Shown: positions 3,053-23,993 of the stretch, in pieces
Layout: every line of letters starts with the position of its first letter
Numbering within the stretch: the stretch's first letter is position 1
Origin: Leuconostoc rapi
GTDB taxonomy: Bacteria; Bacillota; Bacilli; Lactobacillales; Lactobacillaceae
Assembly: GCF_016908715.1 (NCBI RefSeq)
Contig: NZ_JAFBEK010000001.1
Coordinates: 310,001-374,000, forward strand
DNA length: 64,000 bases
Direction of reading: 5' to 3'
The notes under the pieces: model-generated
Seen by the model: only the letters and a program-made list of their open reading frames with translations
The model's database searches: none
Told to the model about the DNA's origin: nothing
Position numbers and translations under genes: made by a program

Positions 3053-3108
3053 ATTTGCATAAATTTTTTAAAAATGATAACATAATAAGAACGATAAGAC
3101 CTTTAATT

Positions 3109-3213
3109 GAGTCCAGAGAGACTTGCAAGGCTTTTAGACAACATAGGGAAGAGTCTATACTTTTTTCTCAAACTTCTAAAACCACGTAAGCCGATTGCTT
3201 ACGTGGTTTTTTG
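3109..3213 (+). promoter_or_regulatory. PyrR-binding attenuator of the pyr operon
   Basis: The segment from 3109 carries the classic PyrR binding loop (AGTCCAGAGAGACTTGCAAG). It is followed by an intrinsic terminator: ACCACGTAAG (3181-3190), 7-nt loop, CTTACGTGGT (3198-3207), then a T run. In the known mechanism, UMP-bound PyrR stabilises the anti-antiterminator so that the terminator forms; low UMP allows read-through into pyrB. The promoter upstream is not clear: TTGCAT at 3055 and CATAAT at 3081 are too far apart for a canonical pair. Confidence 0.9.
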
Positions 3214-3229
3214 TATAAAAAGGAGAATT

Positions 3230-18346: not shown

Positions 18347-18362
18347 TTGGAGGTTGTTTGTT

Positions 18363-19502
18363 TTGAAAAGATATTTAAGATATTGGCAAGAAGCATTTGA
18401 TTTTAATGGTGGTGCCTACCGTTTAGATTTTTGGCTTGTCCAAATGATTAATAATCTTATTTTAGCAATACTAACTTTCGTTGTGGGTAGCATTTTCAAC
18501 GAATGGTTATTATTAAGTCGATTATCTTCAATATTGGGTGCGTTAATTTTTGTACCAAATTTATCACTATTGATTCGTCGATTACGAGATACAGGATTGT
18601 CGCAGCAAGTTATTTCTCTTGTGCTACTAAGCCCTATTTTGGTTGGTGTGCTTATTAGTTTTTTGAGCGCCATTGGTTTGTTAATTCTGGTGCCTTTATT
18701 GTTATTCATCTATTTTGGCGGTTTGATTTTCTTGCTCGCACGACGTTCAGCCTATTGGACGCCATTTCTAAAAACAAATCAAAAAATTGGTTTCACAATT
18801 TTTTTCGTTGTGATGTTGTCGACAATAATTGGTTTGAATACTGTGACTTTGACAAGACAAATGACCACAATTGATGCGTTACTTCAAAATATACAGAAGC
18901 AAAGAAAAAAGACGGCAGTCAGTGTTACTGAAACATCTTCAAATCAATCAGAAATAATCGACTCAAGTTTATCTTCTGCTTTATCGAGTAATCCAGCGCC
19001 AAGTCAATCAGGCACCGGCTCCACGGCGTCAAAAATGCCTGAGATTCAGGTGAAAGGGTTGCCCGATGATTCAGCCACGACAAACTATCGACAATTACCA
19101 GAAATGTCGTTGGGAGATGACGATTTTGGTTTTTTTAAAGTCCAAGGCGACTGGCAACAGGATAAGACATCGCTTCAATGGTCGCTTAGCACATCAAAGC
19201 AAGACGTGACAATCCTGACGAGTACCATGGGTCAAGGATTCGGCGTGGATATGTCTAGCTTCTCGTTTGCAAAAATACTAGGGCAGAGTCATTTTAAATT
19301 AAAGCAACAAAGTGAAGTCGGTGTTTGGCGTATTGATGGCACATACAAGGTGCCATCAACTGGTGAACGAACAGAAATGAGCTATTTAGAATGGTATATG
19401 CCAGATGGGCATATTCGAGTGATGTATGTTCTCTCTGATTCAAAACCATTATTAAATCTAATCATTGATTCATTATCAGAAACGTACCAGGCAGCTGTCT
19501 GA
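18363..19502 (+). CDS. DUF805 membrane protein with extracytoplasmic C-terminal domain
   Basis: The N-terminal half has the DUF805 pattern: a WQEAFDFNGGAYRLDFW opening, several transmembrane helices and the loop RRLRDTG (about residue 79). After a further transmembrane helix (about 150-170) comes a Ser/Thr-rich linker (about 190-230), then a domain of about 150 residues with no family I recognise. That makes it roughly three times the length of a DUF805-only protein. I choose TTG 18363 because GGAGG abuts an earlier TTG at 18354. The function is unknown. Confidence 0.8.
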   Translation: MKRYLRYWQEAFDFNGGAYRLDFWLVQMINNLILAILTFVVGSIFNEWLLLSRLSSILGALIFVPNLSLLIRRLRDTGLSQQVISLVLLSPILVGVLISFLSAIGLLILVPLLLFIYFGGLIFLLARRSAYWTPFLKTNQKIGFTIFFVVMLSTIIGLNTVTLTRQMTTIDALLQNIQKQRKKTAVSVTETSSNQSEIIDSSLSSALSSNPAPSQSGTGSTASKMPEIQVKGLPDDSATTNYRQLPEMSLGDDDFGFFKVQGDWQQDKTSLQWSLSTSKQDVTILTSTMGQGFGVDMSSFSFAKILGQSHFKLKQQSEVGVWRIDGTYKVPSTGERTEMSYLEWYMPDGHIRVMYVLSDSKPLLNLIIDSLSETYQAAV

Positions 19503-19515
19503 AATTTTAACAGAC

Positions 19516-19544
19516 TTGACGTTTCAATCAATGCAGTGCATAAT
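19516..19544 (+). promoter_or_regulatory. Promoter of the glycine-type T-box leader
   Basis: TTGACG (19516-19521), 17-nt spacer, CATAAT (19539-19544). Transcription would begin near 19551, giving an unusually short T-box leader. If the true promoter lies inside the DUF805 gene, the leader would be longer. Confidence 0.6.
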
Positions 19545-19550
19545 GAATAT

Positions 19551-19707
19551 ATTACGTTTATTAATTATGAGGTCATGTGGCGATGATGGAGTTTGTAAAC
19601 TATTCGAGTGTCGAGAAGATTTTCTCGGAAATCAGGTGGAACCGCGCGTAAGCGTCCTGATGTCATTTATTTTGGCATCAGTGACTGCGGACGCGTGGTT
19701 TTTTTGT
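19551..19707 (+). promoter_or_regulatory. Compact T-box riboswitch, probable glycine specificity
   Basis: The conserved T-box AGGTGGAACCGCG is at 19634-19646, preceded by a stem III-like hairpin (CGAGAAGA/TTTTCTCG). The terminator pairs CCGCGCGT with ACGCGTGG around further pairing and ends in T7. Uncharged tRNA pairing with the TGGAA bulge would favour the antiterminator. A short hairpin exposes GGC (19579-19581) in its loop, fitting glycine and the downstream glyQS, but stem I is much smaller than in B. subtilis glyQS, so the specifier is tentative. Confidence 0.8.
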
Positions 19708-19724
19708 CGGAAAGGAATATTCAT

Positions 19725-19804
19725 GTATTAAAGATATATTAAAATATATCTTTAATACTAAGATATATTAAAATATATCTTTATCGTGGTATACTTTAAA
19801 GTAT
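19725..19804. repeat. Tandem palindromes upstream of satD (putative operator)
   Basis: Two copies of a 22-bp palindrome (arms AAGATATATT and AATATATCTT around AA) lie at 19731-19752 and 19760-19781, 29 bp apart start to start. The first is extended to 16-bp perfect arms (19725-19758). A third palindrome, ATACTTT/AAAGTAT (19791-19804), covers the -10 box and part of the start codon of satD. A repressor site is inferred. Confidence 0.8.
19768..19795 (+). promoter_or_regulatory. satD promoter (leaderless transcript predicted)
   Basis: A TGG-TATACT extended -10 at 19790-19795 has a weak -35 TTAAAA (19768-19773), inside the second palindrome. The expected start site, about 7 nt beyond the -10, falls on or next to ATG 19803. 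Confidence 0.65.
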
Positions 19805-20537
19805 GGGAAAAAAACAAGCAATTTATTTTGAACTAGATGTCGTGAATTCGCGACGTATTAGAGACAATACGTTGTTAATCAAACAAGTGATGGCTGTCAC
19901 GAATTATTTAAATCACCTTACAAAAGCTCAGATTCTCATGCCTTTTCAGTGGCATCATGGTGATGCTATTTCAGGTGCAATACAGTCATCCCATATTCGA
20001 CCTGATGTGGTTCACATCTATCGTGAGTTGACATCTTATTTATTAATTCACGCTGTTGAATTGCAATTTTATATGGCCATCGGTGTTGGGGATATTGATA
20101 CAAACTTGACTGACACACAGGATGAGGCACTAGTCAATGGTTCGGCTGTTGTACTTGCCCGACATGTCGTCCTGCCCGCTTTGAAGGAAATAGTTGAAAA
20201 ACAAAAGAATAAGACACTAGGTATACAGACTTATTTTAAAAAAGCGCCGATTTTGATGCGAATGGCAGATGAAAATGGCCAGGTGTCAGAGGTCGAACAA
20301 ATATTAATTTTAGTCTATGAGTTTGAGTTGAGCACTGATAAAAAGCGTCTAATTTATTCGGTATTGAAGGATTCTCAAAATTGGCGCAACGATCTGCCAA
20401 AACTAGTTGAAATAAAAAATAGTGGGTTTACGGTGACAGATACCTTGAAACAAATTGAAAATCGCGCGCGAATGCTCATTACAAAAGCAGATATTCAAGC
20501 GGTAAATAATCAACTATGTGTGTTTGAGGAGAAGTAA
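19803..20537 (+). CDS. SatD family protein
   Basis: A 244-residue protein with the SatD N-terminal pattern: a Dx(I/V)xSR motif (DVVNSRRI, about residues 12-19) and a GD motif (HGDAISGAI, about 56-64) where the family usually has GDEFQG. SatD of Streptococcus mutans belongs to the satCDE acid-tolerance/secretion locus; the biochemical activity is unknown. No Shine-Dalgarno is present, and the -10 box lies just upstream, so the mRNA looks leaderless. The next gene starts immediately after its stop. DNA binding and autoregulation are possible but unproven. Confidence 0.75.
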   Translation: MGKKQAIYFELDVVNSRRIRDNTLLIKQVMAVTNYLNHLTKAQILMPFQWHHGDAISGAIQSSHIRPDVVHIYRELTSYLLIHAVELQFYMAIGVGDIDTNLTDTQDEALVNGSAVVLARHVVLPALKEIVEKQKNKTLGIQTYFKKAPILMRMADENGQVSEVEQILILVYEFELSTDKKRLIYSVLKDSQNWRNDLPKLVEIKNSGFTVTDTLKQIENRARMLITKADIQAVNNQLCVFEEK

Positions 20538-20924
20538 ATGCAACAAGATATCATAAGAATTGTATTAATAGTGATACTTTGGTTAATCATAAACTATCTT
20601 TATGGCCTGTTAATTAGTTTGATATTAAGTAAGATTGGTTATAAAAAATGGCAACCTGTGGTTGGTAACAGAACAGACCCGTTTATACATGGACAACTTA
20701 TTGGTAATATAGAACGCAGTTTGGCCATGCTCTTGGTCATTTTAGGAAATGTCGGTGCGCTAAGTATGATTGTAGCGATTAAAGGATTTGCTCGTTGGGG
20801 TGAATTATCTCAAGTAAATAGTGATGTGCAGAGCGTGGCTATTGACAAATTTATAATTGGTAATTTATTAAGCTTGGGTTTTCCAGTGTTAGTAGCCGTT
20901 GTTTGGCAAGTTTTTGCTACGTGA
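20538..20924 (+). CDS. Small membrane protein paired with SatD (SatE-like)
   Basis: A 128-residue protein with about three to four transmembrane helices. The pattern GNIERSL, then IKGFARWGEL, then FIIGNLLSLGFP resembles a family of integral membrane proteins found next to SatD, sometimes fused to DUF3307, in which ERxL and K-x-x-ARF motifs are typical. The start codon follows the satD stop directly with GAGGAG upstream, so the pair is certainly one unit. The function is unknown. Confidence 0.7.
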   Translation: MQQDIIRIVLIVILWLIINYLYGLLISLILSKIGYKKWQPVVGNRTDPFIHGQLIGNIERSLAMLLVILGNVGALSMIVAIKGFARWGELSQVNSDVQSVAIDKFIIGNLLSLGFPVLVAVVWQVFAT

Positions 20925-20984: not shown

Positions 20985-21929
20985 ATGACAGAACATAAAT
21001 TATCGTTACAAGATATTATCTTAACACTACAACAATACTGGGCTAAACAAGGGGCTAACCTTATGCAAGCCTATGATAATGAAGTGGGTGCTGGGACACA
21101 ATCACCTTATACTTTTTTGCGTGCCAATGGACCAGAACCCTGGAATGCGGCCTACGTGCAACCATCACGTCGCCCAGCTGATGGGCGATATGGGGATAAC
21201 CCTAACCGACTTTTTCAACATCATCAATTTCAAGTTGTTATGAAACCCTCACCAGCAAATATTCAGGAATTGTATCTTGGCTCTTTAGAGGCACTTGGTA
21301 TTAAGCCACTTGAACATGATATTCGTTTTGTCGAAGACAATTGGGAAAATCCCTCAATGGGTGCTGCTGGTATTGGTTGGGAAGTTTGGTTGGATGGCAT
21401 GGAAGTCACACAATTTACGTATTTTCAACAAGTTGGTGGTATTGAAGTTGATTCAGTGACAGCAGAAGTCACTTATGGATTAGAACGCTTGGCTTCATAC
21501 ATCCAAGATGTGCCAACTGTCTATGATTTGGAGTGGGGTAATGGTGTGCTTTATGGTGATATTTTCAAAGAACCAGAATATGAACATTCAAAGTATGCCT
21601 TTGAAGAGTCGAACCAAGCAGTATTGCTCAGGCATTTTGATGAGTTCGAAGCAGAAGCAACGCATTTATTAGAATTAGGGCTAGTACATCCAGCATATGA
21701 CTATATTTTAAAATCATCACATACATTTAATTTATTAGACGCACGCGGAACGGTTTCTGTCACAGAGCGTGCAGGTTACTTGCATAGAATCAGAACCATG
21801 GCACGCCGTGTATCAAAAGTATTTATCCAAGCACGTGCGGATCTTGGGTTCCCGTTACTTAAAGATATTGAATTACGCGATAAGTATTTGGGCGAGAATG
21901 GTAAGTATGCAAAGCAGGAAGGAAAATAA
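20985..21929 (+). CDS. glyQ: Glycyl-tRNA synthetase alpha subunit
   Basis: Catalytic-core subunit of the bacterial alpha2beta2 GlyRS, which charges tRNA-Gly. Diagnostic stretches are [24 protein letters not shown], seen as [14 protein letters not shown], then [14 protein letters not shown] and [22 protein letters not shown]. The 314 residues are normal. SD AAGGAA precedes it. No terminator separates it from the SatE-like gene, so the upstream T-box may reach it through satDE. Confidence 0.97.
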
Positions 21930-21932
21930 AGC

Positions 21933-23993
21933 ATGTCAACATTTTTATTAGAAATTGGTTTAGAAGAAATGCCAGCGCATTTGGTCACAAGTTCGGAAGC
22001 GCAATTAATTGAACGGGCCACGACTTTTTTGGCAGAACATCGTTTATCTGTGAGTGAGATCAAGCCATTTTCAACACCACGTCGCCTTGCTGTCCAATTG
22101 ATTGATGTTGCTTTAGAATCTGAAGCGCTATCTGAAGAAAAGCGTGGACCAGCAATTAATCGTGCAAAAGACGATCATGGTGCTTGGTCGAAAGCAGCTC
22201 AGGGATTTGCTCGAGGTCAAGGTGCGACCCCTGAAGATTTTGAAGAACGTGAGGGATACGTTTGGTTAACGAAACATACGCCAGGTGAAGCAGCGGCAAC
22301 GATTTTATCTAAAATCGGCGATGAAGTTGTCTCACAGATGAAATTCACGACTTATATGAAATGGGCAAACAATAGTTTCTTGTACGTTAGACCAATTCGC
22401 TGGTTGGTTGCGTTACTAGACGAAACCATTGTTGACTTTAGTATTTTAGAAGTTTCAACAGGCCGGTTCACACGTGGACATCGTTTTTTATCTCATGAAC
22501 ACGTTGAAATTACCCATGCTGATCGTTATGTTGACACATTGAAAGCAGCACATGTTCTAGTTGATGCTGATGTGCGTAAATCTGAAATTCGGGCACAACT
22601 TGAAGCCATTGCTACGAAAAATCACTGGCTATTACAACTTGATGCTGATGCAGCACAGGATTTATTAGAAGAAGTGAACAATATTGTGGAATGGCCAACA
22701 GCATTTTCTGGTAGTTTTGATGAAAAGTATTTAGACGTACCAGATGAGGTCTTGATGACATCAATGCGTGAACATCAACGATTTTTCTATGTTACGGATC
22801 AATCAGGCATATTGTTGCCATACTTTTTATCGGTTCGAAACGGTAATACTGAAAATCTCAGTAACGTGATTGCTGGTAATGAAAAAGTACTTGTTGCACG
22901 ATTAGAAGATGCAGAATTTTTCTATCATGAAGATCAACAAAAGACAATTGCTGATAGTATGTTAAAAGTTAGAAAATTGGTTTTCCATGAAAAAATTGGC
23001 ACGGTTTATGAACATATGCAGCGGGTTGGTAAATTAGCAGCAGCTCTGGCAATAAAACTTAACTTTGATGATTCAAAAAAGGCTGATCTTTCTCGTGCTG
23101 CGGAAATTTATAAATTTGATTTGATGACTGGTATGGTTGGTGAATTTGACGAATTACAGGGCGTTATGGGTGAACATTACGCTAAATTATTTGGCGAAAC
23201 GCCTGCGGTGGCAGTAGCTATTAAGGAACATTACATGCCAACATCGGCTCATGGAGAGGTTGCTACGACTGATGTTGGTGCTGTGTTAGCCATTGCTGAT
23301 AAATTAGATACTATCGTCACTTTTTTCTCAGCTAATCTCATGCCAACTGGTTCAAATGATCCCTATGGGTTACGACGTGCTGCGACAGGTATTGTGAGAA
23401 CACTTGAAAATAAGCAATGGCATGTTGCCTTAACACCATTGCTCAATTCGTTTGTCGCTAATAGTGGTGAAGCGACTCAAGATGCTGATTTAACAGCGGT
23501 TTTGTCCTTTATTTTTGATCGTGTCCGTAAAATGGCATTAGATAATGGTGTACGCCAAGATCTCGTGTCTGCTGGCACTGCACCAGTTGGTAGTACAGAT
23601 GTTGTTTACATTGCTGATCGCACGCAAACTTTAGCAAAACATGCTGATGATGTTAATTTTCGTGAAGTGATTGAATCATTGACGCGTGTCTCACGTTTAG
23701 CTGTTAAACAAGTAAGTCAAGACACGATTGATGAGACTTTGTTTGAAAATGAAGCCGAAAGAGAGCTATTCGTGGCTTCAAAATCAATTGACTTGTTGGA
23801 TTTAGAAGACCAAGGAGGCGAAGCAGTTTATCGATCACTAGCTGCATTGCAAATGCCAATTGCTAAGTACTTTGATGAGACTATGGTTAACGTCGATAAT
23901 CAGGAAATTAAAAATAATCGTTATGCGCAATTAAATTTGATTCATAGGCTGATTGTTGGTTTAGGTGACTTAGCACACATTGTCATTAAATAA
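21933..23993 (+). CDS. glyS: Glycyl-tRNA synthetase beta subunit
   Basis: tRNA-binding subunit partner of GlyQ. It begins with the family signature LLEIGLEEMPAHLV and contains TPRRLAV, MKFTTYMKWANN and MREHQRFFYV. The HD-like region and DALR-type anticodon-binding end are present. The 686 residues are complete. It starts 4 nt after glyQ, so stoichiometric production is expected. Confidence 0.97.
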   Translation: MSTFLLEIGLEEMPAHLVTSSEAQLIERATTFLAEHRLSVSEIKPFSTPRRLAVQLIDVALESEALSEEKRGPAINRAKDDHGAWSKAAQGFARGQGATPEDFEEREGYVWLTKHTPGEAAATILSKIGDEVVSQMKFTTYMKWANNSFLYVRPIRWLVALLDETIVDFSILEVSTGRFTRGHRFLSHEHVEITHADRYVDTLKAAHVLVDADVRKSEIRAQLEAIATKNHWLLQLDADAAQDLLEEVNNIVEWPTAFSGSFDEKYLDVPDEVLMTSMREHQRFFYVTDQSGILLPYFLSVRNGNTENLSNVIAGNEKVLVARLEDAEFFYHEDQQKTIADSMLKVRKLVFHEKIGTVYEHMQRVGKLAAALAIKLNFDDSKKADLSRAAEIYKFDLMTGMVGEFDELQGVMGEHYAKLFGETPAVAVAIKEHYMPTSAHGEVATTDVGAVLAIADKLDTIVTFFSANLMPTGSNDPYGLRRAATGIVRTLENKQWHVALTPLLNSFVANSGEATQDADLTAVLSFIFDRVRKMALDNGVRQDLVSAGTAPVGSTDVVYIADRTQTLAKHADDVNFREVIESLTRVSRLAVKQVSQDTIDETLFENEAERELFVASKSIDLLDLEDQGGEAVYRSLAALQMPIAKYFDETMVNVDNQEIKNNRYAQLNLIHRLIVGLGDLAHIVIK

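Follow-up and report, generated by a model that had tools for sequence, protein, structure and literature searches.

The gene arrangement closest to the one analysed here is that of the sat operon of Streptococcus mutans, which was reportedly described by Kremer et al. in 2001 with the gene order satC-satD-satE. As to SatD itself, one source presents it, in the relevant passage, as a family involved in acid resistance (PMC10326533), a passage of a second touches on the S. mutans sat operon (PMC12077213), and a third, in the part that concerns the operon, cites the 2001 paper and says no more on it (PMC4408037). No description of a SatD mechanism was found in the open-licence literature searched (SatD/SatE, DUF3307, sat operon, HTH/cyclase), and a repeat spacing of 28-30 bp upstream of satD genes was likewise not found described in the open-licence literature searched. 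With respect to regulation, we take autorepressors with tandem palindromic operators, e.g., lambda Cro or MarR-type proteins, to be the closest likeness.

The locus described here, part of a 64,000-nucleotide stretch of Leuconostoc rapi DNA (the window), shares something with each of several known systems. Like the S. mutans sat operon, it has satD followed by satE, and classical SatD proteins (PF16264) are found by a profile made from the window SatD and its relatives; unlike that operon, satDE lies between the T-box of glyQS and glyQ, with palindromes and a promoter of its own that is predicted to be leaderless. The proteins also differ from their classical counterparts: the window SatD is 15-19% identical to nine classical SatDs, and the window SatE is a short protein whose match is confined to the C-terminal part of a DUF3307 partner. 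The likeness to lambda Cro and MarR-type autorepressors consists of tandem, dimer-type sites over the gene's own promoter, the window sites being exclusive to satD, whereas the sensor here would be a nucleotide-cyclase fold, the spacing is 28-30 bp, the site sequence varies by genus, and binding is putative. The predicted fold of SatD residues 1-176 and the conserved D12 and D54 recall class III nucleotide cyclases, GGDEF proteins, GTP cyclohydrolase III and the Cas10 palm, although identity is 5-17% among the 50 matches listed, SatD adds a C-terminal helical domain, and the similarity is one of fold, taken from a model. Finally, the T-box sequence, antiterminator and terminator upstream of glyQS are those of a T-box riboswitch (RF00230), but Stem I is very short, the specifier lies in its apical loop, and two guest genes precede glyQ. 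The features referred to below are as follows, in window coordinates.

About 19551-19709, + strand: glycine T-box leader with a very short Stem I whose apical loop contains GGC; lies 5' of the satDE promoter
19683-19700 plus T run, + strand: stem of the T-box terminator, a terminator-like site
19731-19752, no strand: putative operator site 1, 22-bp palindrome AAGATATATTAAAATATATCTT, with arms extending over 19725-19758
19760-19781, no strand: putative operator site 2, the identical 22-mer AAGATATATTAAAATATATCTT, at -43 to -22 relative to the ATG and over the -35 position
19787-19795, + strand: extended -10 element TGG-TATACT, without a -35 consensus; TGN-TATAMT in 4/4 genomes
19791-19804, no strand: third palindrome, 14 bp, ATACTTTAAAGTAT, present in the window and absent from three relatives
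19803, + strand: predicted transcription start at the A of the satD ATG, from the -10-to-ATG distance and the lack of an SD-like word in 4/4 genomes
19803-20537, + strand: SatD-like protein, 244 aa, with a modelled nucleotide-cyclase-fold N-terminus and a helical, putatively DNA-binding C-terminus
20538-20924, + strand: SatE-like protein, 128 aa, hydrophobic and of membrane type by eye
20985-21929, + strand: glyQ, glycyl-tRNA synthetase alpha subunit (Pfam/NCBIfam scan)
21933-23993, + strand: open reading frame identified by eye as glyS

Palindromes and promoter upstream of satD in Leuconostoc

An earlier, sequence-only reading of this locus had described two identical 22-bp palindromes lying 29 bp apart, the first with arms of 16 bp, and the window sequence confirms this: the two sites are 29 bp apart from start to start with a gap of 7 bp, and the arms of site 1 are perfect over 16 bp (19725-19740 and 19743-19758). 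A palindrome of equal score arose in 0/100 dinucleotide shuffles of the 120 bp upstream of satD, and AAGATATATTAAAATATATCTT with up to three mismatches occurs at one further place in the 1.92-Mb genome (none for the backward control pattern). A mobile element or repeat family as the source of the palindromes was considered and dropped, there being no further copies in the genome. The third, 14-bp palindrome does exist at 19791-19804 as had been reported, but its proposed membership in the operator did not hold up, since it is not conserved in the three relatives, where the same position reads ATACTTCAAATATG (two genomes) or ATAATTCAAGTATG (one); for that reason we dropped it as an operator part and regard it as probably incidental.

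The promoter was also as first read, i.e., an extended -10 element ending 7 nt before ATG 19803 and no ribosome site. The -10 hexamer occupies 19790-19795, and none of the words AGGA, GGAG, GAGG or AAGG occurs within the last 22 nt before the satD ATG of the window. An upstream start is excluded in the window because an in-frame TAA lies at 19797-19799, just 5' of the ATG; in the other three satD-bearing genomes the open frame extends further 5' without an ATG, with a TTG in one of them (L006). All four satD-bearing genomes have the geometry of leaderless genes (a -10 element 6-7 nt before the start and no SD), the distance from the end of the -10 to the ATG being 7, 6, 6 and 6 nt, with no SD-like word, and that from the end of site 2 to the -10 being 8, 8, 7 and 8 bp. 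The satD transcript is thus predicted to start at the ATG itself and to be leaderless. An SD-like GAGGAG precedes the satE start, and read-through from the T-box promoter could therefore express satE without satD.

A SatD-like gene is present in 4/19 Leuconostoc genomes, at the same locus in each, and the window satD is identical to the other three at 503-511 of 729 nucleotides (that is, about 30% differ). Against this divergence, the half-sites AAGATAT/ATATCTT are identical in all four genomes, and are the invariant part of the sites, and the 29-bp spacing between sites 1 and 2 is the same in all four. The loss of conservation upstream of related satD genes that would have spoken against the first reading was consequently not seen; rather, the two-site layout that it had proposed is kept wherever the gene occurs in the genus. 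Exact matches to AAGATATN8ATATCTT number eight in the 19 genomes, every one upstream of satD; the 15 genomes that lack a satD match have none. Matches with one mismatch are found scattered in other places. In a sister genome whose GlyQ is 100% identical (G009), the T-box and glyQ are kept but satD has disappeared along with its promoter and the palindromes, and the deletion scar between T-box and glyQ (L012) retains 85 bp of satE (86% identity); judged from this scar, G009 is a case of loss of satD together with its sites.

Gene neighbourhood and the SatD-like and SatE-like proteins

The satDE module and its palindromes had been recognized from the start, whereas the T-box leader (about 19551-19709) and the placement of glyQ had been missed; satDE in fact sits between a glycine T-box leader and glyQS. 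When 601 bases were searched permissively, the Rfam T-box model (RF00230) matched 19527-19662 with 40.2 bits (E 1.8e-7); the gathering score is 93 bits, and at that threshold the window as a whole gives no match. The assignment draws on comparison within the genus: glyQ is matched in 18/19 Leuconostoc genomes, a T-box motif lies upstream in 18/18 of these, and GGC is found in the apical loop GUGGCG of a very short Stem I in 18/18 (alignment A4), with seven base pairs, all in Stem I, changed on both sides (covariation) among the 18 genomes. That is, the locus has the T-box sequence and antiterminator, a specifier hairpin with covariation, and an amino-acid gene downstream. Specifiers in the apical loop are described for short Stem I's in the relevant part of a published account, which also states that Stem I is intermediate or ultrashort in most translational T-boxes (PMC7583486). 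The glyQS T-box found here, with its very short Stem I, is of the transcriptional kind.

Several observations on the neighbourhood can be added. In Lactococcus (L075, L076, L078), GTGGCR occurs at a similar distance; the word proves little by itself because some loci with longer leaders (L088, L106) carry it too. The interval between T-box and glyQ is stretched in four Leuconostoc genomes without satD (L017, L023, L025, L026); the open reading frame within it in L017 and L023 we take to be DUF1801-like, and L025 and L026 share its start. A 469-aa open reading frame lies between T-box and glyQ in Fructobacillus (L072), and the interval may be an insertion hot spot. Directly 5' of the T-box, at 18354-19502 (+), the window encodes a DUF805 membrane protein (PF05656, E 2.2e-8), and a DUF805-like frame (by eye) precedes the T-box in L005 and L007, not in L006. 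Elsewhere in the window, a PyrR binding site at 3096-3215 (+) scores 54.6 bits, just above the Rfam gathering score of 54.

Neither the frame at 19803 (244 aa) nor that at 20538 (128 aa) has a Pfam or NCBIfam match at E<=1. The cut-off of PF16264 (29 bits) is not reached here: the window SatD has no match at E<=1, its ortholog in L005 scores 17.8 bits, and L042 scores 26.4 bits, while 14/22 members of a joint SatD alignment match PF16264 at E<=1. A profile of six relatives (A1) finds homologs in 42/395 genomes of the order, among them L055 (E 8.2e-7) and L063 (E 4.7e-6), whose own matches to PF16264 have E 4.7e-83 and 1.3e-95; in the phylum, a SatD match is found in 68/398 sampled genomes. The name satD, given to the gene in the first reading, can thus be kept in the sense of remote homology to classical SatD by profile, but the window protein has no Pfam match of its own; from these profile comparisons it is a SatD-like relative, and we do not call it a PF16264 member. 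The turn G53-D54 is invariant, and D12 and S16 nearly so, in 22 SatD sequences. A satE/DUF3307-type partner lies directly 3' of satD in the window (the frame at 20538): the window SatE matches the C-terminal part of the SatD partner in L008 (BLASTP E 2e-8 over 67 residues), which itself matches DUF3307 at E 9.8e-30, and a hydrophobic partner frame lies downstream of satD also in L069 and L070 (by eye). Searches of PADLOC (defence) gave no match for SatD or SatE, PHROGs (phage) gave none for SatD and E 0.058 and 0.52 at best for SatE, and no SatD-like match was found on plasmids at E 0.01.

By sequence, the window SatD has no match in the PDB, and the 22-member SatD profile has six weak ones, one of them a cyclase at E 1.5. 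An AlphaFold2 model of the window SatD (pLDDT 77.9, pTM 0.78) gives residues 1-176 a nucleotide-cyclase/GGDEF fold, with VIA Z scores of 9.0-10.5 over 118-149 residues (rmsd 2.7-3.8) among the 50 matches listed, and the best Foldseek matches of the model are a Csm complex (E 4.2e-4) and an adenylyl cyclase (E 7.6e-4). The N-terminus therefore models as a nucleotide-cyclase fold, an assignment at the level of fold alone, and D12 and D54 are presumably the metal-ligand positions of that fold. The C-terminus is helical in the model, at low confidence (pLDDT 68.7), and no HTH was among its matches when the window C-terminus was searched alone. With a profile of nine classical SatD C-termini, 42 sequences in the PDB are matched at E<=10. 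Most of them belong to HTH regulators (e.g., adhesin competence repressor, E 0.0021; DeoR, 0.015; Cro, 0.045; AdcR, 0.066), and some are homeobox or transposase chains; the window C-terminus aligns weakly with this classical HTH region (hhalign probability 4.5%, E 0.0091).

Repeat spacing upstream of satD genes across the phylum

Direct repeats 28-30 bp apart and scoring at least 7 were found upstream of 19/49 satD loci vs. 4/138 control intergenic regions (one-sided Fisher p 1.7e-9), where the controls are mostly from Lactobacillales and not phylum-matched, 39/49 satD loci being from other orders. Other spacing classes in the same loci reach at most 7/49, and 30/49 loci are without a 28-30 bp direct repeat scoring at least 7. 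The 49 loci represent 48 genera (two are from g123) and were placed by their profile match positions, some starts being perhaps off by tens of bases; they include L189 (g393), and one satD locus (L180) has an internal stop. At a score of at least 15, direct repeats precede 5/23 satD genes vs. 1/140 control intergenic regions, and the lone control lies before satD of Leuconostoc gelidum, which carries a SatD-like gene (L071, strain KCTC 3527). The strong repeats are those of five genera, all in the window's order, with spacings of 29 bp (g1), 29 (g48), 30 (g69), 28 (g43) and 29 (g68) and with unrelated sequences; in g393, a 27-bp GC-rich repeat lies apparently inside a reading frame.

It is important to note that the direct-repeat statistic was chosen after spacings of 28-30 bp had been seen in some clades, and two reduced sets are the cleaner tests, with shuffles that ignore the relatedness between genera. 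In the 43 loci that remain without the five strong genera and g393, spacing 29 ranks first of 61 (mean self-similarity 4.63 vs. 3.4; z 4.2; 0/300 shuffle sets at any spacing), and it is still first after the top three contributors are dropped. Repeats of 28-30 bp spacing are found at 8/10 loci inside the order and 11/39 outside it, and in the 38 loci outside the order (again without g393) spacing 29 ranks first (z 4.1, 0/300 shuffle sets), with 11 repeats observed vs. a shuffle mean of 1.4 and maximum of 5. The repeats outside the order are short (7-10); some are simple words (TTATAAT), and GGGTGAA is common to several related genera.

Inverted or direct repeats of any kind, by comparison, are not clearly commoner upstream of satD: at p<=0.02 they are found at 9/23 satD loci vs. 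9/40 controls (one-sided Fisher 0.13; 40 of 56 controls scored) and at p<=0.05 at 10/23 vs. 13/40, a test in which terminator hairpins probably score too. Outside the clades named here, no weight is therefore given to palindromes by themselves. L008 (start misassigned, low score) and L044 (no start) are omitted from the repeat tests; L151 (same genome as L055), L171 (profile start 37) and L174 (same genus) from a 30-locus set; and L193 and L201 (same genus) and L195-L200 (partial or late profile match) from a later one. Extra members of genera already represented (e.g., L062, L063) were left out.

The operator-type sequences differ between genera, e.g., AAGATAT vs. TATATAGT. In g69, satD is preceded by two TATATAGTnnTnACTATATA-like palindromes, 12/12 places of the pattern in seven genomes are at satD, and in 5/7 two of them are exactly 30 bp apart. 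In g25 (G042, G078, G133, G156), each genome has a single inverted pair AACATTTGATT...AATCAAATGTT, located at satD in 4/4, its arms being 42 bp apart (four helical turns), a layout unlike the direct repeats of 28-30 bp. In g43, there are several copies of ATGTCTRTTATRA, with 26/44 matches in eight genomes at satD and 18/44 elsewhere. A ATGTCTRTTATRA inverted pair, 48 bp across, is present in 4/8 g43 genomes (G201, G243, G417, G249; inferred Streptococcus; L066, L067, L068), and in G201, G417 and G243 it lies just 5' of a small gene whose product has, by eye, a lipoprotein-like signal; this gene is a possible second SatD target.

A putative tandem operator and its alternatives

The two palindromes are very probably the operator of the satDE promoter, given their conservation and exclusivity in the genus and their position. 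A dimeric regulator would bind both 22-bp sites, which at 29 bp are about 2.75 helical turns apart, and the bound sites would cover the -35 position and the region just upstream of the extended -10 promoter and block RNA polymerase; when the promoter fires, the transcript would begin at the satD ATG and its translation would be that of a leaderless mRNA. Such repression would also guard T-box control, given the place of satDE between the glycine T-box and glyQS: the satD promoter comes after the T-box terminator and, unrepressed, would feed glyQS regardless of glycine, which may be the reason for tight control, and repression of satDE would stop this internal promoter from bypassing the T-box. 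As for the regulator, the spacing is kept from genus to genus as the site sequence changes, and hence the binder most likely travels with the gene, for which SatD itself is the economical candidate; we consider it the probable binder of the sites. SatD had been named as a candidate from the start, and the recurrence of the 28-30 bp spacing across genera with different motifs lends that proposal indirect support, but the window SatD has no HTH match. Taken as a whole, we favor the reading of a tandem operator of an autoregulated, leaderless satDE module with SatD as the likely autorepressor, a protein that would bind DNA through its C-terminal domain and, through the nucleotide-cyclase-like N-terminal one, respond either to a nucleotide or to a signal passed on by SatE, its membrane partner.

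Alternatively, the palindromes might be the operator for an unlinked repressor or activator encoded elsewhere rather than for SatD. Many regulators bind palindromes of 20-22 bp, and a DNA-binding domain is not demonstrable in the window SatD; yet an unlinked regulator would not readily explain a 28-30 bp spacing that persists while sequences differ between genera, the exact core sites in Leuconostoc and the g69 and g25 sites occur only at satD, and in G009 the sites vanish together with the gene, all of which makes this explanation unlikely in our view.

A role at the level of RNA appears quite improbable, although some of the evidence points that way. Under this hypothesis, sites 1 and 2 would, in read-through from the glyQS T-box, form one hairpin of 22-28 bp, immediately ahead of the satD start, that blocks or processes the transcript (RNase III being an example of hairpin processing), and satD would be off unless its own promoter fires. 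The predicted minimum free energy is indeed low (-24.8 kcal/mol, where shuffles average -9.1; z -7.1). Pairing between the sites extends over 22/22 positions in each of the three relatives, whose site 2 is an exact reverse complement of site 1, and over 20/22 in the window; in G006 (L005), site 2 carries a change that matches one in site 1, which keeps the pairing at a within-site symmetry of 9/11. This pattern, which hairpin-based correction or an RNA hairpin explains as well as an operator does, counts as evidence against the simplest operator reading. However, template switching can perfect inverted repeats without selection, the promoter lies downstream of the hairpin and satD's own transcript would therefore be without it, the invariant part of the sites is the half-sites AAGATAT/ATATCTT, and other genera have direct repeats of other sequences. 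Finally, the array could be functionless, left behind by a decayed mobile element or produced by template switching or by AT-rich sequence. The DNA is AT-rich and hairpin-prone, and the centres of the sites are exchanged between species in a way that template switching could produce, but spacing and half-sites are exact in four genomes despite the divergence of satD, no other copies exist in the genome, and the spacing signal is family-wide; we therefore consider this explanation very improbable.

Returning to the tandem operator with SatD as its candidate regulator, a broader and more tentative proposal, which we hold at somewhat less than even odds, is that SatD represents its own class of regulator: a cyclase-fold sensor with a DNA-binding C-terminus that would repress itself through at least two sites 28-30 bp apart, with a signal that is made, bound or relayed by SatE/DUF3307, and with the geometry kept across the phylum and the site sequence free to change. 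SatD is widespread, and the operator spacing gives it a concrete, testable role, putatively self-repression by a cyclase-fold protein, while the genus-specific site sequences supply every clade with a ready DNA ligand and open a route to further targets. In Leuconostoc, satDE would represent a module that is leaderless and under separate control, set between a T-box and its synthetase genes.
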